Part shown: positions 42,948 to 63,052 of the stretch, piece by piece
Layout of the letters: every line of letters begins with the position of its first letter
How positions within the stretch are numbered: position 1 is the first letter of the stretch
Source of the DNA: Rhodocollybia butyracea
Lineage: Eukaryota; Basidiomycota; Agaricomycetes; Agaricales; Omphalotaceae
DNA length: 64,000 nt
NCBI GenBank assembly: GCA_015501585.1
Contig: JADNRY010000060.1
Span: 186,001 to 250,000 of the forward strand
Direction: 5' to 3'
The notes under the pieces: generated by a model
What the model was told of the DNA's origin: nothing
Databases searched by the model: none
What the model saw: only the letters and a program-made list of their open reading frames with translations
Made by a program: the position numbers and the translations under genes

Positions 42948-43307
42948 TCAGAGACTTCGTGGTGAGGATGAGGTGTAAATGCGTTGACACTCAGTTCCCT
43001 GAATGAAACTTATCAACCCTGGAACGACTCTCCTCATGGGCTCTAACATTCGTTCAATGTTAGAATGGTTGTCTGGGGTAGGGAAATGGACAGCGTGAAT
43101 GCTCAAGAGGCTAGGCAATAGCGTGCTGAACAGTAGTAAACTCACCAAATTGCCTCCGTCCCTCACCAGCAACACATATGTAGTACAACGAAACACACTC
43201 AGCCAGCTCTGTGTTCACTTTGTCAGCCAATTTTTCCCTCAGATTCTCCAGCTTCTTCCCGTCACCAAAAGCCTTAGCGGTAGAAGAGGACTCAAGAGGG
43301 GTGACAG
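42948..43307 (-). pseudogene. 3' part of an unidentified gene, cut by the copia insertion
   Basis: Minus-strand sequence flush against the left LTR reads as coding: TPLESSSTAKAFGDGKKLEN, then LREKLADKVNTELAECVSLY and YICVAGEGRRQF, a GT-AG intron (43073-43145) and DNHSNIERMLEPMRRVVPGL, ending at 42948. The same frame remains open across the TSD into the sequence right of the element (55698-55815), where it hits a stop, so upstream exons, if they exist, must lie further right. I do not recognise the protein. The balanced amino-acid composition and the clean splice junction argue for a real gene; homology would settle it. Confidence 0.4.
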
Positions 43308-43588
43308 TGTTGGAGTATACTCTGTACGTACGAGGTTCAGTACACTTCGCTTTGACATCTCTTTATTGGTATACGCCGCTAGCTTACTATATACTGTACA
43401 GTTGGTACTATACCACGCTAGACGGCGTCTTCGAGCTGTCCTCAGTTGGTTTTCTTTACCCACTGAGGTGAGCTCGTTCTTATTTATTCTGTTCACCTAA
43501 CTTACGATACATTCTAGTTTAATTCGTTTCTACAGGTATTATAATATAGTTGGTTTTCTTTACCCACTGAGTTTAATTCGTTTCTACA
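43308..43588 (+). repeat. 5' LTR of the old copia element
   Basis: 281 bp. Contains the A - intron-like - B - spacer - A - B layout at 43446-43589 described separately. Retains many CpG dinucleotides that the 3' LTR has lost. Confidence 0.93.
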
Positions 43589-47414: not shown

Positions 47415-50400
47415 GTACCATTATTGCAATGTAGGGTGGCCGTGGCCAGAGCTTGCATTACAATTTAGGGCAGTGTCTGCTGTAGCAGAAAGGTGACCCT
47501 ACATTGCAATGTGGCATAAGTCACAGCATGGCTTTTGAAAAATTACTGGATTAGGGAATTTTTTGCTCTGTGTAATATAGAGCTGGGTTTGCATGTCACA
47601 TCACATCTGTTTTAGCTAAATTTGGAAATAAAAAAGTCACCATATTGAGCTATAGCTAAAGCGGCAGTGCCGGTGTACATTGATCCGGTCATGTGACCGG
47701 TGGATCTCAGTTTTGGACAGCTTCGATAAAATCAGTCATTTATGGGCCCATTTTGGACATTTCTGGAGTGGTAGCAAGCAGGACCCTGATAGTAGGTGCT
47801 TATGACCTGTGGAGGTTCAGATAAAAAGTTCGGATAATTTTGGCCAGTTTGGAAAGGAAGTTAGCTTAGTAGGGTCCAGTAGGGTCAGATTTTGAATGAT
47901 TTATGAGCAATTTTTTTGGCTCCAGGTGCATCAAATAACTACCACAGCCACTGAGCAAAATTTTCCAGCCGATTTTACAAGATTTTATGCCTCTACTGGT
48001 AGAAAAATCCGGCCTGGGACTAGGCTATGTACAAGTTCGGATAAAAACTGGGTCAAAAGTGAAAATTTGGTTTGGATAAAAACTGGGGCCCCCGTACATG
48101 ACATTTTCACCTATTATCAGGGGTCCTTAGCAAGCCCAAAAAAGGCTATACACAATGTATTAATATTTGAGCAGTGTACCTCGGCCCATGGGGTGCTGTA
48201 ATGGGTTGGATTGAACAAAAAGATTTAGATTACCTTCGGTCAAAGCTGTACATCACTGCCTAATTTGGAATTCCAGCAAAGCAGCCTAAAAAGCCTGCTT
48301 CTACAGTTGATATTCTCCCTAATCAGAGTGTACATGGTGTCATTAGATGTATAATAGGTCCCTGAAGCAAAATTAAAGCCATAGCTCCGGTCAAAGCTGT
48401 TTTATTACCATATTTAGAATACCAGCAAAGCGGCCTAAAAGCATGCTGGTGCCTAGGTATTCCCTCTAATACCAGTCTGTACAGTGATTATACATGTACA
48501 ATAGGTACCTGAAGCAAAATTAGGGCAGGTATGTGGGTTAATAGTGGCCCTGCTTCGAGGTTTTGGCCTGTGGCTGTGCTGTCAAAAGTCGAAGTAACAG
48601 TAGGATATTTTACATACTAGTGATACAGGCATAGTGTCTGCACAAAATATATATGCCTGAAGTAAAACTAGGGCATTACATGGCAGGAATAAGCTGTAAT
48701 TACCAGCTAATAGGTCGGAGTAGGTCAAAGCTGTATGTCCAAATAGGGAAATATATAGGTGGTGTTGAGTCAAAGTTGGGGTCAGTAATGGCATGAATTC
48801 TCAAGGGGTAAGGCTTGAAGTGTATATCTGGGTACTGTAGTATGTTAACTACATCTGCAGGTTGTTATACTCATCATTCTGTGTCCAGGAGGAGGAGCAT
48901 AGAGTGATCAATGGTTAGTAACCATCAAAAATCGCATTTTTTGGGTGATAAAATGCTAATAGTGAGTGCTTAAGTGAAGTAGGCCCTCAAGGCGAGGTAG
49001 GTATACTGGAATACATGCTAGACCTTCGTTCCATGTCCAAGAGTGATTAATATGGTACTAGAAGCGATGGTATGGATTGATTTTTCGATATCTTGCCTAA
49101 AAAGTCGATTTTTGATGAATTAACATGGAATAGTGAAGCCTTTAGAGTACCTAAGGCGCTGAAAGTGCTCATACATACTGTACTATATAGTCTCAACCTG
49201 TGCCATACCGACGAACGATTTATATGGCCACAGGAGCGATGGTATCTTATGTTATTTTTGAAAAAATGTGATTTTCAGTTAGTAAAACATGAATAGGTGA
49301 TGCTATGCAGCTCCAATAATGCTAAAACTTTGGGAATCAAGTCTTCGAATTCTATTAAGTGAGTTCAAGTCCCTACAACAACCCCTGGGTATGTCAATAG
49401 CATGCTCATGTTTTAAGTGTTCACATAGATATCTGTAGTTAGCTCAAAGTTCAGATCATATTATTGAGATGTGTATAGCCAGACTTTTGAGTCTAGAGGA
49501 CATCTAAATGATTCGAAGATATGATTCCCAAGTTTTGAGCATTATCTGAGATGTATAGCATGTTCCATTCATGTTTTATTAGCTGAAAATCGCATTTTTT
49601 CGAAAATAACATAAATATCAGTGAATACCATCGCTCCTGGGGCCATATAAATTATTCGTCGGTATGGCACAGGTTGAGACTATATAGTACAGTATTTATG
49701 AGCACTTTCAGCGCCTTAGGTACTCTAAAGGCTTCACTATTCCATGTTAATTCATCAAAAATCGACTTTTTAGGCAAAATATCGAAAAATCAATCCATAC
49801 CATCGCTTCTAGTACCATATTAATCACTCTTGGACATGGAACGAAGGTCTAGCATGTATTCCAGTATACCTACCTCGCCTTGAGGGCCTACTTCACTTAA
49901 GCACTCACTATTAGCATTTTATCACCCAAAAAATGCGATTTTTGATGGTTACTAACCATTGATCACTCTATGCTCCTCCTCCTGGACACAGAATGATGAG
50001 TATAACAACCTGCAGATGTAGTTAACATACTACAGTACCCAGATATACACTTCAAGCCTTACCCCTTGAGAATTCATGCCATTACTGACCCCAACTTTGA
50101 CTCAACACCACCTATATATTTCCCTATTTGGACATACAGCTTTGACCTACTCCGACCTATTAGCTGGTAATTACAGCTTATTCCTGCCATGTAATGCCCT
50201 AGTTTTACTTCAGGCATATATATTTTGTGCAGACACTATGCCTGTATCACTAGTATGTAAAATATCCTACTGTTACTTCGACTTTTGACAGCACAGCCAC
50301 AGGCCAAAACCTCGAAGCAGGGCCACTATTAACCCACATACCTGCCCTAATTTTGCTTCAGGTACCTATTGTACATGTTTAATCACTGTACAGACTGGTA

Positions 50401-51089
50401 TTAGAGGGAATACCTAGGCACAAGCATGCCTTTAGGCCGCTTTGCTGCCATATATATTTCCCTATTTGGACATTCAGCTTTGACCTCTTCCTGTAATAGT
50501 GCCTTATTCCTGCTATATAGTGCTTCAATTTCGCTTCAGGTACATATATTTTGTGCAGGAACCATGCCTGTATCATCAGTACTGTCAAATATCCTACTGT
50601 AATTTCGACTTTTGACAGCACAGCCACAGGTCAAAACCTCAAAGCAGGGCCCATTATTACCCATACACCTGCTCTAATTTCGCTTCAGGCAGCTACTGTA
50701 CATGTATGAACACTGTCTAGACTGCTATTAGATAGAATACTTGTGCATAAGCAAGCTTTTAGGCCGCTTTGCTAGCATTCTAAATATGGTAATAAAACAG
50801 CTTTGACCGGAGCTATGGCTGTAATTTTGCTTCAGGGAGCTATTATACATCTAATGACACTATGTACATCCTCATTAGCAAGAATATCTGCTGTACAAGC
50901 AGGCTTTTTGGCCGCTTTGCTGGCATTCCCAATTAGGCAGTGATGTACAGCTTTGACCGAAGGTAATCTAAATCTTTTTGTTCAATCCAACCCATTACAG
51001 CACCCCATGGGCCAAGGTACACTGCTCAAATATTAATACATTGTGTATAGCCTTTTTTGGGCTTGCTACCACTCCAGAAATGTCCAAAA
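47415..51089. repeat. giant palindrome centred near 49435
   Basis: The minus-strand ORF at 48582-48794 and the plus-strand ORF at 50076-50288 are identical, placing the symmetry axis at about 49435. Arms are nearly perfect from 48500-49290 and 49575-50370, with a diverged central 280 bp. The left arm has a 356-bp segment (47773-48128), bounded by direct AGCAAG repeats, that is absent from the right arm (junction near 51062-51067). The right arm instead has a diverged tandem duplication of about 345 bp (about 50110-50790). The distal right arm continues at 54411-54753. Confidence 0.88.
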
Positions 51090-55423: not shown

Positions 55424-55697
55424 TGTTGGAGTATACTCAATATGTACAAGGTTCAGTACACTTTGCTTTGACATCTCTTTATTGGTATACACTGCTAGCT
55501 TACTATATACTGTACAGTTGGTACTATACCACGCTAGATGGCGTCTTCAAGCTCCCTCAGTTGGTTTTCTTTACCCACTGAGGTGAGCTTATTTATTCTG
55601 TTTGCCTAATTTACAATACATTCTAGTTTAATTCCTTTCTACAGGTATTATAATATAGTTGGTTTTCTGTACCCACTGAGTTTAATTTGCTTCTACA
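55424..55697 (+). repeat. 3' LTR of the old copia element
   Basis: 274 bp, the same layout as the 5' LTR including intron-like segment, spacer GTATTATAATATAG and second A-B copy. Numerous CpG sites of the 5' LTR are TpG or CpA here. Confidence 0.93.
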
Positions 55698-56814
55698 GAC
55701 AGTTGGCAAGGAAAACTTGAAGTGGTTCAGCGACAAAAGGAGTAAACATTCAGAGGAATTGGGGAAATGGCAATATATTTTTCCCCTTAGACTGAGATTC
55801 AGATAGATTCCTCAGCAAAACAGAGTCTTTAACTAGCCCAACAGCCGCTATACACATCTGGCTTTGCAGTGCTCCACTTTGCATGTTTTAAGCTCTTCTG
55901 GGATTTTGATGGCTCAGTTTCATAGGTTGTCCAACCAGGAAGACAGTAATATAGCAACCTGAAAGACATTAAATTTGACTGTACAATACATCAAATAATA
56001 CTGTCTAGACAGGCAAGATAACTGGCAAAGACAGTAAGGATTCCTGCATTCTCAAGAACTGTCTTAGCCCGTAGCCATTACTGTCCTAGGGCAGTTATAT
56101 AAAATCCCGTTATATTTGATGTATCTACACATGACTGATACTAGCTCGCTTCACTTCTGCATACGCATCGACCAACCGACCAAACACACATCCTGTGTTA
56201 AGAAAAATAACTTACCTATTGATGCTGCTGCGCAAAGTGGAAGTTGTCAGTCAGGTTTCAGAAGTTCTACCATAAAGTTGCAAGAGTCAGAACCGTGAAA
56301 CTACGAAAAAAGAAAAAGAACAAGAGACTTACCCATTTGCAGGCACAAAGTGAGTCATCTTTCAGCTGTCAGAGTCCTGAAACAGAGTTGTCATCAATCA
56401 TGAGCATGAAGAGGGTGACAGGCGAAAGAAGAGATCACTTACATTTCCTAAGATTGGCTAGTGCATGAAGTGCAAGCTGTAGGTCAACTTCCAGGAGGAG
56501 TCTTAAAATAAGGTTGTCATCATTGAGAATACTACCTGAGACTAATCAATAGTGAGCTTGCAGTCACCAGCAACGGTAACATGTTTAACTGTGATGACAT
56601 AGTCACAATGTTTGTTGTACAAAGCGATCAAGAGAGCTTTGGTGCTGCTTGACCAAGAAGTTAGAACTTAAGCTGGGCAAGGCCAAATCTGGGTCCAATG
56701 GCAGTGGCAAAGACAGACCTGTTCTTGAGGCTGTTTACAGGACTATCAACACCAGGAACAATAATACTGCATGTCTTGGCATTCACAGTCCTAGAGATAA
56801 CTGCATGAATGGTC
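55698..56814. other. repeat-rich intergenic between the two copia elements
   Basis: Only short ORFs; two weakly similar stretches contain GTTGTCATCA. No supported gene. The left 120 bp may belong to the gene interrupted at 43307. Confidence 0.35.
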
Positions 56815-57162
56815 TGTTGGATATTCGGTCCGCGGTATATGGCCGCCGGTATGTACAGCTCCAATACCGAGTAGATATCAGACCCGAGTTCTTATCATTT
56901 GTTTTAACTTTTATTTCACTGATACGGATTTCTACTTATACTGTACGTATCGACGTTCCCTTCTTTTCCTCAGCCTTCATCACTTCTGGCTGAGGTATGT
57001 CTATTATACTTATGCTCTATGTCCATTATGCTCATACTGTACCTATAGCTTAGTTGTACATCGTACTAACGTGTCTCTTAGGTATGGTAATATGATTTAG
57101 CCTTCATCACTTCTGGCTGAGCTTAGTTGTACATCGTACTAACGTGTCTCTTAGTTCCAACA
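56815..57162 (+). repeat. 5' LTR of the young copia element
   Basis: Starts TGTTGG, ends CCAACA. Carries the duplicated intron-like layout at 56974-57154. Confidence 0.96.
56974..57154 (+). other. LTR intron-like unit followed by its own spliced form (element 2)
   Basis: A1 (56974-56994) is followed by a 54-nt segment (56995-57048) starting GTATGTC and ending CTATAG, then B1 (57049-57081, contains ACTAAC and ends CTCTTAG). A 19-nt spacer GTATGGTAATATGATTTAG (57082-57100) follows, then A2 (57101-57121) joined directly to B2 (57122-57154). A2-B2 is A1-B1 with the GT...AG segment exactly missing. A longer alternative intron, 56995-57081, would use the ACTAAC branch site. The 3' LTR is identical. 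Confidence 0.9.
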
Positions 57163-57178
57163 GGTTATGGGCCCCGAG
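57163..57178 (+). other. primer binding site of the young copia element
   Basis: GGTTATGGGCCCCGAG directly after the LTR matches the complement of the initiator tRNA-Met anticodon arm (GGTTATGAGCCC) with one difference that a G-U pair would tolerate. Points to half-tRNA priming. Confidence 0.65.
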
Positions 57179-57261
57179 TCCGCCTGATACAGCCAGCCTT
57201 ATAGTGATTACCGGAATCGAATCTTTTATCTTCTCTTCCTGCATAACCCTCGTCTCTATCG

Positions 57262-60200
57262 ATGTCTACTACCCCTTCCGCTCCTACTACCCAACCTACT
57301 CAGACTACTTCGAGTACACAGACCACTATGACCGCGCCGACTATTCCGAGTGATTGGACCATCCCTAGTGGTGGAAATTCACTCTTCCCTCGTGACACTA
57401 AGCTCAAAGGTGAAACAAATTTTTCGTCTTGGTCTGCCGTCTTCCTCGCTGGTGCTCGCACAGTAGGATGTCAGTCTATTTTGTCGGGCGCGCTTGTTTG
57501 TCCTTCCGATACCGACACTAAGTATCTTATCTGGCAACGGATGGATTCTTATATGATGAACATGCTTCTCCAGTGTATCTCTGAGAGCATGGTCAGCATG
57601 GTAGAAGGTCTTACGAGCGCCGCCGCCTATAAACGACTTTCGGGTACTTATGGTCCTCAGGGTTCTGGTCTCATCATGACGTTCTTCTCCCGACTCACCC
57701 GCCGACTTCCGCTCCAGCATAGCTTTGATTCTTTGTCCGCCCATCTTCAGGGTTTCGAATCTGCTCTGCAGGATATCCGGAAAGCTGGGTACGTTGTGGA
57801 GGAAGGGTTTGCCTCTGCTATTCTTGTCACTACTCTCCCCAATGAGGAAGGTGCGACCGGGTCTTGGCACACCTGGATCCGCAGTTTCTCTCTCACCTCC
57901 AGCACTACTCTTGAGTCGACTGTCCAACAGATTTTAGGTTCTTACCGTTCAGCTCATCCTGACGAGAACTCTAATTCCGGCATGTCGAACGTAGAAGCCG
58001 CCGTCGCTGTGCTCGAACGCTCCTATGCGGCCCGTGGAGATTATTATTGTGTCAACTGCCACACTCCCGGTCACACCAAGGATTTTTGCCGTAAGCCCGG
58101 TGGTGGGAAACATGCTATGGAGGCTAAGGGAGGTAACAGAAAGGGGAAAAATAAGAAGAAGGGCAAAGAGAAAGCCCACCATGTGGATAGTGGGGGAGGA
58201 GGTGAAACTGAGCAGTCTACCTCATCACATTTCGTAGAATCTTCTTCGGGCGCCAATATTATCGATTTCTCTGCTTACCCGGTGACCGAGACTTCTACAA
58301 ATGTGAATTCCTCCCAGCCTATGTCTGAGTCAGTGTATCCAGCTGGTACTACTGCCGATAGGCCTCCCATCATTATCGACTCTGGTACTACGTCTCACAT
58401 TCATTCTGTTCGTGCCGACTTCATGTCTTTCCACCATCCGGCCATTTCTCAGAAGGTTACTGGATTTGGTCATGGTACTATGAAGATTGCAGGTCGAGGT
58501 ATAGCCGTTTTTCTTGCGCGTCGTCGCCATCGTCAACTTGTCCGTCTCAATCTGAAGGACACTGCTTTCGTTCCTGACTCCTCTCCTACCCTCATTTCCG
58601 TTTCCCGACTCGACGAAGCTAAGTGTTATACTGTCTTTGGCGCAGGGAAATGTGTAACATTCAGTAAGGATGATGCTGGTACTTTTATCCAGCGCCTTAT
58701 TGATGAGGAGGATGTTGTTTTCACTGGAACGAAGGACGATTCTCGACTTTATCACCTTGACTCTGCTCCCTCCACCTCTGCGTTTACATCTTCCACCTCG
58801 GACAAACCTCCGCTTTACTCCAAACTGGTTCAGCTTCATAACGAGCTTGGGCATTTGAACTATCCCGCTTGTCGTGACTTGTACCGTTCGGGTACGCTTG
58901 AGGGGATGACCGTGAAACTTACGGCCTCAGAATTGGCTGCAGAACCCCCCATCTGTGACGCCTGTGCGCAGGGAAAGCTCACCCGTGCGCGCTTTCCTGA
59001 ATTGAACTCTAGAGCTTCAGAGCCACTGGGCCTAGTTCACTCAGATCTTTGGGGACCAGCTCCGGTCTTGACCACGACCGGCATGGGGTATCTCATCACG
59101 TTTCTTGATGATTGCTCCCGTATGGCTTGGGGTTACTTGCTTCGCCGCAAGAGTGATGCTTTTACTGCTTTTAAGCAGTGGTTAGTTGAAGTAGAGAAGG
59201 TAACCGGCAAAAAGTTGAAGGTTTTCCGCACTGACAATGGTGGGGAATATATAACCAACGAGTGGCGCGATTGGATGAAGGAGCATGGTATCCGCTGGGA
59301 AAAGACCGCTCCTTACACTCCTGAACAGAACGGCCGTTCTGAGCGCCTCAATCGTACAATTTTTGACCGGGTACGCACTATCCTTATTCACTCTCAACTT
59401 CCTCTCTCTATGTGGGGCTACGCTGTCTGGTACATTCTTAATATCCGTGCCCGGACTTATGCTAGTCCTCTACCTAAAGGGGAGACACCCTATCATCTCT
59501 GGTACAAGAAGCACCCTGACCGTCGAAAATTGCATTCTTTTGGATGTAAAGTTTGGGTATACAACAACTCGCAGGAGCATAAACTTGACGCTCGTGGTAC
59601 TCCTGGTATTTTTCTAGGTTTTGACGAGACTCGGGTGGCATACTATGTGTACACGCCAGGTAAAGGTGTACGTTCAGCAATCTCTGTGAAGTTTGATGAC
59701 AACACTAATGGAGATGGACTTTTGAGCGCCGCGGGGGAGTCCTATGATTATTCGTCTCTCAAAAATCCTACTTATAAAGATGACAATGAGTTTTCCCCTA
59801 TAACCGCTCCATCCGCTCTCCCACCTGACCCTCCTGTTCCTGTTCCTCCTGCTACTCCTCCACCTCGTGCCCCTCGTCCTAATCCCCGCATGCCTTCTGA
59901 TGCTACACCTGCTAAGACTCGCTCTCGTGCGAGAGCAGAAGTCCAGCCACAGATTGATGAGGATATTCCTCCGCATGTTGAGCTTGATATGGATGATAGC
60001 GGGGATGAGGGGGAGATGCCCGAACTGGCTCATATCTTGAGTGGTGAAATTCCATTCAATGTTTCGCAGGCTCTCAACTCTCCCGATCATGCAGAGTGGG
60101 AAGCCGCTTGTCATTACGAGCTTAACCAGCTCTTGGAGACTGGGACTTACTCTCTCGTTCCACCACCTCCTGACCGTAAGGCCATTGGTACACGCTGGGT

Positions 60201-61626
60201 CTTCGCTATCAAGCGCAATGCCGACACTCAGGCCATTGAGGTCTACCGAGCTCGACTTGTAGCTCAGGGTTTTACCCAAATTCCGGGTATTGACTTTGTC
60301 GATATCCACGCTCCGACTGCTCGTATTGAATCCATTCGTGGTATTGCAACCGTAGCGGCCATCCAGGATTGGGAAATTCATGTCATTGATGTGAAATCTG
60401 CTTATCTTAATAGCACCATCCCTGATGACCAGCCAACGTATGTGAAGCAACCACCCGGATTTGCAGTCAGAGGAAAGGATTCGTGGGTTTGGAAGCTTAA
60501 CAAGGCACTCTATGGACTTAAGCAGTCTGGTTTTCTCTGGTATGAGAAACTAAAAAGTGTTTTGGTTGAACTTGGCTTTCAGGTTTGCATTTCCGATCCT
60601 TGTGTCTTCTTTCGTCGTTCTTCCGATGGAATAATCATCATTGCAACTCACGTCGATGATCTAGCTCTCTTTGGTTCCTCCATTCTACAGATTATTCAAT
60701 TCAAGGATGAGTTCCGTACTCATTTTGATATCTCGGATAAGGGGGAGATCTCTCAATTTTTGGGTATGACTGTTACTCGTGATAGATCTGCTCGAACCAT
60801 TTCCTTTTCCCAATGTTCCTACATCTTGTCTCTCATTTCCCGTTTCCGACTCGATGATGCTCACCCCGTTGGAACACCCATGGAAAAGACGGTATTGTCC
60901 AAAGCTGATTGTCCTTCTGATGATTCTCCTGAACAGAGAGAGATGCGCTTGGTGCCCTACGCTGAAGGTGTTGGTTCTCTCATGCACGCCTCCACTCGAA
61001 CGCGCCCGGACATCACTCGCAGCACCCAACAAGTAGCGCAGTTCATGCATAATCCCGGTCATATCCACTGGAAAGCAGTGAAACGGATTATTCGCTATTT
61101 GAAGGGGACTGTTGACTTCGTCCTCGTCCTTGGTGGCAAGTCACTCCTTTTCTTTGCCTATACCGACTCCAACTTTGTTGATCACCTTGAACATGGTCGT
61201 TCGGTGTCTGGCGCCGCCCTCACTTTCGGTACAGGTTGTTTTTCCTGGTATACGAGGAAACAGACTGCTGTTGCGACTTCCACCAGTGAAGCCGAATATT
61301 ATGCAGCTGGATCTTGTGGTAGGGAAGTTGTTTGGTTCCGCTCCCTTCTCCAGGAACTCGACTTCACTCAACCTGAACCAACTCAGATGTTTGTTGATTC
61401 ATCTTCGGCTTTGAAGAACATTAATTCCGACCAAGTCACTAATGCAAACAAACATATCAAAATTCACCACCACTGGATTCGTGAAGCGGTTCATTGCGGT
61501 GATATTCAGACAGCTGTTGTTGCTTCTAGGGATAATGTCGCCGACATATTCACCAAAGCTCTTGATGGTGAAACTCATCGACAGGCAACTCGACTACTGG
61601 GACTTGTCCCAATGCATTCTCGTTGA
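57262..61626 (+). CDS. copia gag-pol polyprotein, 1454 aa, intact
   Basis: Single frame from ATG at 57262. Order: gag with zinc knuckle CVNCHTPGHTKDFC (CX2CX4HX4C, near residue 255); aspartic protease IIDSGTTSHI; integrase HHCC region (HNELGHLNYPACRDLY, CDACAQGKLTRA) and D,D,E core (HSDLWGPAP, RTDNGGEY, NGRSERLNR); reverse transcriptase (WVFAIKRNAD, VIDVKSAYLNS, THVDDLALFGSS); RNase H (AYTDSNFVDH, TSTSEAEYYA, HIKIHHHWIR). The protein contains no stop or missing catalytic residue that I can see. The leader of 99 nt holds the primer binding site. The opposite-strand ORFs are shadows. Confidence 0.97.
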   Translation: MSTTPSAPTTQPTQTTSSTQTTMTAPTIPSDWTIPSGGNSLFPRDTKLKGETNFSSWSAVFLAGARTVGCQSILSGALVCPSDTDTKYLIWQRMDSYMMNMLLQCISESMVSMVEGLTSAAAYKRLSGTYGPQGSGLIMTFFSRLTRRLPLQHSFDSLSAHLQGFESALQDIRKAGYVVEEGFASAILVTTLPNEEGATGSWHTWIRSFSLTSSTTLESTVQQILGSYRSAHPDENSNSGMSNVEAAVAVLERSYAARGDYYCVNCHTPGHTKDFCRKPGGGKHAMEAKGGNRKGKNKKKGKEKAHHVDSGGGGETEQSTSSHFVESSSGANIIDFSAYPVTETSTNVNSSQPMSESVYPAGTTADRPPIIIDSGTTSHIHSVRADFMSFHHPAISQKVTGFGHGTMKIAGRGIAVFLARRRHRQLVRLNLKDTAFVPDSSPTLISVSRLDEAKCYTVFGAGKCVTFSKDDAGTFIQRLIDEEDVVFTGTKDDSRLYHLDSAPSTSAFTSSTSDKPPLYSKLVQLHNELGHLNYPACRDLYRSGTLEGMTVKLTASELAAEPPICDACAQGKLTRARFPELNSRASEPLGLVHSDLWGPAPVLTTTGMGYLITFLDDCSRMAWGYLLRRKSDAFTAFKQWLVEVEKVTGKKLKVFRTDNGGEYITNEWRDWMKEHGIRWEKTAPYTPEQNGRSERLNRTIFDRVRTILIHSQLPLSMWGYAVWYILNIRARTYASPLPKGETPYHLWYKKHPDRRKLHSFGCKVWVYNNSQEHKLDARGTPGIFLGFDETRVAYYVYTPGKGVRSAISVKFDDNTNGDGLLSAAGESYDYSSLKNPTYKDDNEFSPITAPSALPPDPPVPVPPATPPPRAPRPNPRMPSDATPAKTRSRARAEVQPQIDEDIPPHVELDMDDSGDEGEMPELAHILSGEIPFNVSQALNSPDHAEWEAACHYELNQLLETGTYSLVPPPPDRKAIGTRWVFAIKRNADTQAIEVYRARLVAQGFTQIPGIDFVDIHAPTARIESIRGIATVAAIQDWEIHVIDVKSAYLNSTIPDDQPTYVKQPPGFAVRGKDSWVWKLNKALYGLKQSGFLWYEKLKSVLVELGFQVCISDPCVFFRRSSDGIIIIATHVDDLALFGSSILQIIQFKDEFRTHFDISDKGEISQFLGMTVTRDRSARTISFSQCSYILSLISRFRLDDAHPVGTPMEKTVLSKADCPSDDSPEQREMRLVPYAEGVGSLMHASTRTRPDITRSTQQVAQFMHNPGHIHWKAVKRIIRYLKGTVDFVLVLGGKSLLFFAYTDSNFVDHLEHGRSVSGAALTFGTGCFSWYTRKQTAVATSTSEAEYYAAGSCGREVVWFRSLLQELDFTQPEPTQMFVDSSSALKNINSDQVTNANKHIKIHHHWIREAVHCGDIQTAVVASRDNVADIFTKALDGETHRQATRLLGLVPMHSR

Positions 61627-61633
61627 GGGGGAG

Positions 61634-61981
61634 TGTTGGATATTCGGTCCGCGGTATATGGCCGCCGGTATGTACAGCTCCAATACCGAGTAGATATCAG
61701 ACCCGAGTTCTTATCATTTGTTTTAACTTTTATTTCACTGATACGGATTTCTACTTATACTGTACGTATCGACGTTCCCTTCTTTTCCTCAGCCTTCATC
61801 ACTTCTGGCTGAGGTATGTCTATTATACTTATGCTCTATGTCCATTATGCTCATACTGTACCTATAGCTTAGTTGTACATCGTACTAACGTGTCTCTTAG
61901 GTATGGTAATATGATTTAGCCTTCATCACTTCTGGCTGAGCTTAGTTGTACATCGTACTAACGTGTCTCTTAGTTCCAACA
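61634..61981 (+). repeat. 3' LTR of the young copia element
   Basis: Identical to the 5' LTR over 348 bp. Confidence 0.96.
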
Positions 61982-63052
61982 TGGTCAGTGTCTGCCGAAA
62001 CACAAAAACCAGCGAGATTTGTCCTTGACAAGCTCCTATGCCTTTCATCACTCAGGAGTGAATAAGTTAGCCAAAAACTCAGGCCACAGGCCCATAAATT
62101 AAGCAGATCATGAAATGCTATGTACTGAATACATGCATGTAAAAACTAAAGGAATGCATACTATAAAACAGAGTTGAAAAAGAAAAGACAAAACAAACAT
62201 ACATTGGTTTGTACAGTTACATCAAGTTAGAAAGAGGGAGAGGAGGGAGGGTGATGAAAAATTGACTTGATCAAGCAAGATCTAAGTCAGATATCAGTCA
62301 GTATACAGTACACAGGCAAAAAACATCGATCTAAGCGCACTGAGAGCCCTGATATCTAAGATCTAACAACTAGGTCAACTTCAGAGGCTGTAGATGTGTA
62401 TAGATCTGTTATGGATGTGTTATGGGCTCTGTTCAGTGAAAGATCAGTTAGATCAGTGAAAAAGCGCACCAATTCCTTTGATCTGAGACTCTGTGAGCAA
62501 AAGCTAGAGTCTGTGCAGTCAAAAGGAGGTGCTGTGAGGCGATGTTTGAGCTATCAGAGCTGTATAGAGTGGACAGATGTCCTTACCAGTCACCAGAAGT
62601 GAAGTTGATGGTGGGGGAAGGAAGGAAAGAAGCACAGGATCTTGTCAGATTTCTAATCATGTTCTCACAGGCCTCTGCTCGGAACTCCGGCACCTGTGAG
62701 AGCTAGAAACTCGACTAGACACTGGCTGATCATATGTCCAAAGTGGCAGCTGACCAGAGGTGGTCATGTGCTGAAAAACTCGAAATGCAAAGTCCAAGTT
62801 AGAGTGCTGGATTTTGAAAATGAAATCACAGAAGAACAAAGATAGGTAGCACTTCGGTTATTTTTGCGATTTGTTAAGGACATGATAGAGTACCTATGAC
62901 AGTAATAGCAGGACCGCACGGTACTGCAATGAAGCATGCCGGACTTGCAATGAATTCATGTGCACTGAAAAGTGATGAATTGTGCATTGCAAGTCCTGGA
63001 TGGTATCTGTTGTTTGCAGAGGCCTTCAGAAAGTCTCCCTACCCTTGGAATC
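61982..63052. other. intergenic, no gene seen
   Basis: AT-rich with runs related to AGATCTAAGTCAGAT. A 12-bp inverted repeat GGACTTGCAATG / CATTGCAAGTCC lies at about 62940-62998. No ORF with recognisable features. Confidence 0.35.

Follow-up and report, generated by a model that had tools for sequence, protein, structure and literature searches.

A 64,000-nucleotide stretch of the genome of the basidiomycete Rhodocollybia butyracea (contig JADNRY010000060.1, positions 186,001 to 250,000 of the forward strand; hereafter the window, with coordinates counted from its first base) contains a young and an old copia retrotransposon whose long terminal repeats (LTRs) follow one plan: a unit, A-B, occurs twice, once on either side of a spacer, and only the first copy is divided by a GT..AG segment. 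We consider it probable that these LTRs contain a split R region, and that in each replication cycle a spliced leader rewrites the second copy, A2-B2, while the segment (intron 1) is kept upstream. Several patterns emerge from the DNA. The layout is present in many LTR types, a GT-AG placement is available for the missing segment, the two A-B copies change in concert, the base at the edge of A2 is a mutational hotspot, and reduced forms of the LTR occur. The parts of the young element, with its primer binding site (PBS)-like sequence, are as follows.

56815–61981, + strand: young copia element; two 348-bp LTRs, TGTTGGA..TCCAACA, identical to each other
56815–57162, +: 5′ LTR, 348 bp; identical to 61634–61981
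56972–56994, +: A1, putative first exon; left edge of the A1/A2 identity
56995–57048, +: intron 1 (putative), GTATGT..CTATAG, 54 nt; missing between A2 and B2
57049–57081, +: B1, putative second exon; ends TCTCTTAG, then GTATGG; repeat of B2
57082–57098, +: spacer; its last base is LTR site 284
57099–57121, +: A2, same as A1; putative start of the landing pad for strong-stop DNA
57122–57154, +: B2, same as B1; 8 bases remain to the LTR end at 57162
57082–57154, +: putative intron 2 (spacer, A2 and B2), GTATGG..CTAAC..TCTCTTAG, 73 nt
57163–57174, +: PBS-like GGTTATGGGCCC, directly 3′ of the 5′ LTR
57262–61626, +: Gag-Pol reading frame, 1454 aa, open; copia order, rve before RVT_2
61634–61981, +: 3′ LTR; layout as in the 5′ LTR, at 61791–61973
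61791–61813, 61814–61867 and 61868–61900, +: A1, intron 1 and B1 of the 3′ LTR
61901–61917, 61918–61940 and 61941–61973, +: spacer, A2 and B2 of the 3′ LTR

The repeated A-B unit and its occurrence in the genome

The first-pass annotation had noted that the GT..AG segment 56995–57048 is absent from the second A-B copy, and this is confirmed here with slightly refined coordinates. GT and AG ends can be assigned to the missing segment in all 14 LTR types compared and in 41 of the 42 rows of our LTR table, the exception being L087, which has an indel at intron 1 and no such placement; the table leaves out the old element's decayed 3′ LTR. Because A has AG as its last two bases and intron 1 does too, the borders can be set only to within a few bases, and the GT-AG placement was picked by script among about five allowed ones. 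The A segments of L056, L057 and L065 were shortened by the repeat finder and had their starts restored in the type comparison, and repeat matches of L052 upstream of its LTR were disregarded.

Intron 1 is 47–55 nt long across the types. A CTRAY branch motif is present in 10 of the 14, against shuffle means of 2.8 or 1.7 depending on the position window, and the observed count was reached by none of 2000 and none of 3000 shuffles. The types with the motif represent five of the seven groups that are formed by a cut of six A-B columns, the closest pair of types differing at two such columns; the young element's intron 1 is one of the four types without it. By its ends and its branch motif, intron 1 would qualify as a spliceosomal intron across types. 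There is also a hairpin at A (CTCAGCC..GGCTGAG in the young LTR), with at least 7 of the 8 positions of its arms paired in every one of the 14 types. The motif CCTCAG, previously described as preceding A1, is better read as CTC|AG, with AG as the first two bases of A. The spacers had been said to begin with GT and to share the motif GTATnnTAATAT; the initial GT stands in 16 of 16 types or classes (15 of them with GTA), and the motif does not hold across types.

The old element has the same plan.

43308–43588, + strand: 5′ LTR; plan as in the young LTR
43444–43467, 43468–43517 and 43518–43535, +: A1, intron 1 and B1
43536–43547, 43548–43571 and 43572–43588, +: spacer, A2 and B2
55424–55697, +: 3′ LTR; same plan, decayed; B1 and B2 unlike

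Its target duplication is GACAG, shared with 43303–43307, and G 43589, the first base of its PBS, completes an AG. Between its LTRs, at 48128–51068, the window holds large inverted repeats (838 nt at 98%, and others).

To see how widespread the plan is, we scanned for two repeats whose second copies abut and whose first copies are at least 25 bases apart. On the + strand of the window there are three matches, all of them LTR copies (43444, 56972 and 61791), the decayed 3′ LTR of the old element being missed; there are none on the − strand, none in 511,947 shuffled bases (one strand), and none on either strand of 267,607 bases of unrelated viral contigs. These viral contigs gave 29 pattern matches, none with the layout, and four stretches that share peptide words with the copia protein, none of which is a relative.

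The window's own 95.6-Mb genome was searched with the RVT_2 family and with the old-element protein, and 30 loci were taken from each search. The full layout is present in 24 of the 30 old-element-protein loci (23 by the scan and L051 by eye); four others have reduced forms (L058, L059, L063 and L078), and L066 and L080 are unassigned. Among the RVT_2 loci (L021–L050), ten belong to the young family and have the layout, five (L031–L035) lack intron 1 and have a tandem unit in which the first copy runs into GT, and in the other 15 the stretch covered has neither arrangement. The 3′ LTRs of L031–L033 and of L034–L035 represent two further copia classes in which the second tandem copy ends in CAG, and which possibly have the same design in a simpler form. 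In the 3′ LTR of L032 an 11-bp inverted repeat, imperfect in L031, encloses the start of the repeat unit, and its right arm holds CACTAAC. A pattern drawn from one lineage has 81 matches in the genome and none in a reversed control, with at least two of the 81 (C428 and C448) lacking any visible remainder of the layout.

The layout is thus not confined in this genome to two copies, and the ends of the missing segment track GT and AG, the two points on which the first-pass annotation had staked its claim of a conserved or recurrent mechanism over chance deletion. That claim is strengthened by the recurrence of the GT..AG placement in 14 types and seven groups, and by the finding that A and B change together within a type and differ between types. 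The LTR families with the layout may have a common ancestor.

The young element is a Ty1/copia LTR retrotransposon by its proteins and its ends, with rve at residues 586–687 and RVT_2 at 962–1209 of the 1454-residue polyprotein, and a 5-bp target duplication, TGGTC, at 56810–56814 and 61982–61986. Its family appears to be recent: 19 of 40 matches to its LTR that were scored genome-wide have the full score, and several copies have reading frames of 1458–1459 codons. Two loci, L015 and L017, look like solo LTRs. The 5′ LTR is followed by GGTTATGG in the young family and by GATTATGAG in the other types read. GGTTATGGGCCC may be a PBS of the half tRNA-Met type; it also lies 3′ of ten LTRs in the genome, but those LTRs were recognized by GGTTATGGGCCC. 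The 64-kb window contains no tRNA gene for comparison with the PBS.

Concerted change and a proposed replication cycle

In the cycle that we propose, transcription would start at A1, at CTC|AG, and two introns would be spliced from the 5′ leader. Intron 1 would separate A1 from B1; intron 2 would comprise the spacer, A2 and B2 and end at or near the LTR/PBS border. The product would be a leader of A-B-PBS. The tRNA-primed minus-strand strong-stop DNA would be a copy of this short spliced leader and would land on the intron-free A2-B2 of the 3′ LTR, to be extended through the spacer, B1, intron 1, A1 and U3; the poly(A) site would be beyond A2. Each new LTR would retain intron 1 and have its A2-B2 rewritten from spliced A1-B1 at constant length, so that both copies would evolve together. 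We infer the start site, the splicing, the landing on A2-B2 and the position of the poly(A) site from sequence features.

The two copies agree closely within types. Spliced A1-B1 is the same as A2-B2 in 11 of the 14 type representatives (the exceptions are F4, with one difference, F7, with a length difference of one base, and F13, with two differences), and B1 is identical to B2 in 13 of them; the mean difference between types is 19.5 of 42.9 columns. In pairs of close types (at most six differing columns; n = 14, the pairs not being independent of each other), both copies share 42 of the 54 differences, and all 12 exceptions involve F4 or F13. The same is seen within the young family, where L085 has a like change at LTR sites 248 and 321, and L087 has the same two changes at 246–247 and at 319–320, the mirrored sites lying 73 nt apart, which is the distance between B1 and B2. 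The change at site 248 is present in B1 only in both LTRs of C437, and in both B1 and B2 of the LTR of C775 that was read, the other LTR of C775 having an equal mismatch count to an 80-base probe. These two elements fit a course of events in which different parental LTRs supply the B1 and the B2 of a new element, and B2 is later overwritten with the sequence of B1, this direction being one that we infer. The mirrored new changes, together with recent LTR variants that lack introns, argue for splicing today.

Two other explanations were weighed. The first is an old tandem duplication maintained by ordinary gene conversion or slippage, with the GT..AG segment as a relic, which would draw on the readiness of direct repeats to recombine and would fit several of the reduced forms described below. 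Conversion should, however, sometimes bring the intron into A2-B2, and this is seen in none of the 28 readable loci among the 30 found with the old-element protein, a count in which the scan itself selects abutting A2-B2 and the remaining loci were read by eye; moreover, the branch motifs are kept, and we regard this explanation as very unlikely. Secondly, a single splice could run from the A1 donor to the AG that ends A2, giving A1-B2 with no intron 2. Since A ends in AG, one event would yield the same spliced product, but it would not keep B1 and B2 identical, as they are in nearly all representatives, nor would new changes in B be mirrored; we give this route hardly any credence.

A further pattern concerns the base at the left border of A2. 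A probe of 80 bases around A2 matches 67 places in the genome with at most three mismatches, 30 of them exact and 24 with one mismatch, and 17 of these 24 single mismatches (15 A and 2 C) fall on site 284, the base before A2. No base of the young LTR varies more than site 284, many of its variants being both LTRs of one element; the base that precedes A1 is the same in all 30 distinct young LTRs compared. The common background carries both the A variant (L038 and L042) and the C variant (L045); A also occurs on the background of L089 and C on the one of L085, which we read as at least four events. In other types T and C alternate at the same base between copies that are alike in other respects (L053 and L054 versus L055 and L073; L060 and L061 versus L059). 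C is the base before A1, and a C at site 284 would be expected if some transcripts start one base earlier, a shift that does not account for A. The A2 edge may mark the place where the end of the first-strand DNA meets its new template. A cap-derived G at this edge was considered and rejected, as none of the variants has G. In two unrelated insertions, C661 and C1115, the base before A2 is T in the 5′ LTR and A in the 3′ LTR; that they are one duplicated locus was rejected because the sequences upstream of them show no relationship, with 403 of 1500 positions alike.

The A2 edge invites two other explanations. In one, the poly(A) site would lie where the spacer ends, and strong-stop DNA copied from the spliced leader would be joined to that 3′ end without homology, so that A2-B2 is made anew each time. 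The left edge of A2 is both the putative RNA start and the hotspot, and the spacers are AT-rich, as this would have it; however, the GT at every spacer start is not required, there is no A tract at the junction, and the A-B and extra-unit forms resemble homologous landings, and we consider such a jump unlikely. In the other, there are two start sites, A1 for a spliced mRNA and A2 for the genomic RNA, such that R would begin at A2, as it does in LTRs of the conventional kind, and A1-intron-B1 would be an mRNA leader only. A hotspot at A2 and not at A1 would suit this, and in the barley copia element BARE separate RNAs serve translation and replication (PMC3735527). It leaves the joint change of A1-B1 and A2-B2 unexplained, and we think it improbable.

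A putative intron 2, reduced forms and points of difficulty

The main support for intron 2 is that a rewriting of A2-B2 at constant length calls for an A-B-PBS leader. GT directly follows B1 in all 16 types or classes, and the spacer-A2-B2 segment is 48–73 nt long. The young family has an AG within the LTR, at the end of B2, and CTAAC lies 16 nt before the end of the putative intron, with CTAAC at a suitable distance in the L031 class as well. Among the other types, wherever the 5′ side was read (L081, L082, L083, L084 and the window's old element), CA closes the LTR, and the PBS supplies, as its first base, the G that makes up the AG of intron 2. A YTRAY motif is present in 12 of the 16, against a null of 5.0 (p 0.0003). 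We regard intron 2 as likely in some types and as unproven in others, and as the weakest step of the model. A second PBS in the spacer, suggested by a loose likeness to GGTTATG, was rejected, as the likeness, judged by eye, is lost in most spacers.

A wider interpretation, to which we would give about even chances, is that the lineage replicates through spliced RNA as a rule, with R as a split gene and an intron-free copy of R placed within the second intron; landing on that copy by spliced strong-stop DNA would preserve the first intron, and each jump would make the copy again from spliced RNA. It would take in the completion of the second acceptor by the first PBS base in several types: only at the 5′ end of the RNA, from which the landing pad has to be removed, would such an acceptor be certain, and at the 3′ end, which has to keep the pad, it would arise by chance.

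Reduced and extended LTRs take several forms. An A-B-only LTR is found in C594 (the 3′ LTR read, the 5′ LTR identified by pattern through the PBS), in C839 (5′ by pattern, 3′ by spacing), in the 5′ LTR of C1227 (by pattern), and in the 3′ LTR of C431 (L063, read), whose 5′ LTR, read as far as this unit, has an intron-free A-B. The form A-B-spacer-A-B is present in both LTRs, each read, of L059/L082, with the target duplication AGTTT; A-intron-B is present in L078 and, by position, in the 5′ LTR of C558; and C279 and C1109 have one extra 73-nt unit. These forms agree with what partial splicing or another landing site would give, without proving it, because all except the L059 form could be direct products of recombination between repeats. 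A further stretch, C368:114635–114687, lacks spacer-A2-B2 and matches, with three mismatches, the young family's intron-1 end, B and LTR end.

A number of observations count against the proposed cycle. First, the 3′ LTR carries intron 1 just as the 5′ LTR does, and the cycle does not account for its retention there. Secondly, the evidence for intron 2 is mixed: its enrichment in branch motifs hinges on the motif chosen, as CTRAY is present in 3 of 16 (null 1.9, p 0.29) and YTNAY in 12 of 16 (null 9.7, p 0.19); and the base after the 3′ LTR, which is host DNA, is G in 11 of 23 loci and not G in 12, so that the AG of intron 2 forms by chance there too. Thirdly, not all changes are mirrored, since L087 has a change at site 329 and an insertion at 235 with no counterpart. 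Fourthly, the A-B, A-intron-B and extra-unit forms could have come from recombination between direct repeats. Fifthly, four elements (C661, C1115, C1227 and C558) have unlike LTRs, and one standard round of reverse transcription gives equal ones. Two of these are unlike in layout: C1227:186890–191102 has a 5′ LTR of A-B only and a 3′ LTR with spacer and A2-B2, and C558 (L087) has a 5′ LTR of A-intron-B only, by position, and a 3′ LTR with spacer and A2-B2. Sixthly, the inverted repeat of L032 has its left arm beyond the repeated unit. Finally, the cycle is built on DNA sequence, and on that of a single genome, R. butyracea.

Relationship to known elements

The young element resembles Ty1/copia elements in its single frame with rve ahead of RVT_2, its 5-bp target duplication, its TG..CA LTRs and a PBS-like sequence directly after the LTR; it differs from them in that the putative R (A-B) occurs twice, once split by an intron, and that the 5′ leader would be spliced before reverse transcription. 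Penelope-like elements have a reverse transcriptase (RT) of another class, and the young RT matches RVT_2 over the full profile and is not of the Penelope type.

LTR elements are held to rely on unspliced genomic RNA (PMC3735527, PMC10309623), and retrotransposons are said to need to avoid the packaging and copying of spliced RNA (PMC3735527); Cer1 is described as an exporter of its unspliced genomic RNA (PMC10309623). Penelope-like elements are noted for introns kept through retrotransposition, a likeness to the LTRs described here, and an antisense template has been proposed as the reason for this retention (PMC3846280). Among the open-licence matches listed for LTR introns or spliced templates, we found no description of a duplicated, intron-split R, which may still have been published.

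If the proposed cycle is correct, one lineage has made splicing a part of reverse transcription, with the duplication of R as its solution to intron loss. Each LTR would then be a record of its last transposition, A2-B2 being a cDNA of the parent's spliced leader, and genomic DNA could reveal shifts of start site, choices of splicing and steps between generations. In such elements R would be misplaced by programs that use a single U3-R-U5 unit.

The closest parallels are partial ones. BARE belongs to the copia group too, and its transcript is spliced and its RNAs are distinct, as those of the elements described here would be; its intron is in the coding part, and it replicates unspliced RNA only (PMC3735527). 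Ogre is also an LTR element with a spliced transcript, but it splices between reading frames and not in the LTR (PMC3735527). Foamy viruses have their major splice donor inside R, and so in both LTRs, as would the elements of R. butyracea; unlike these, they are described in the account cited with a single R, and without the rebuilding of the LTR by a spliced leader (PMC3694450).
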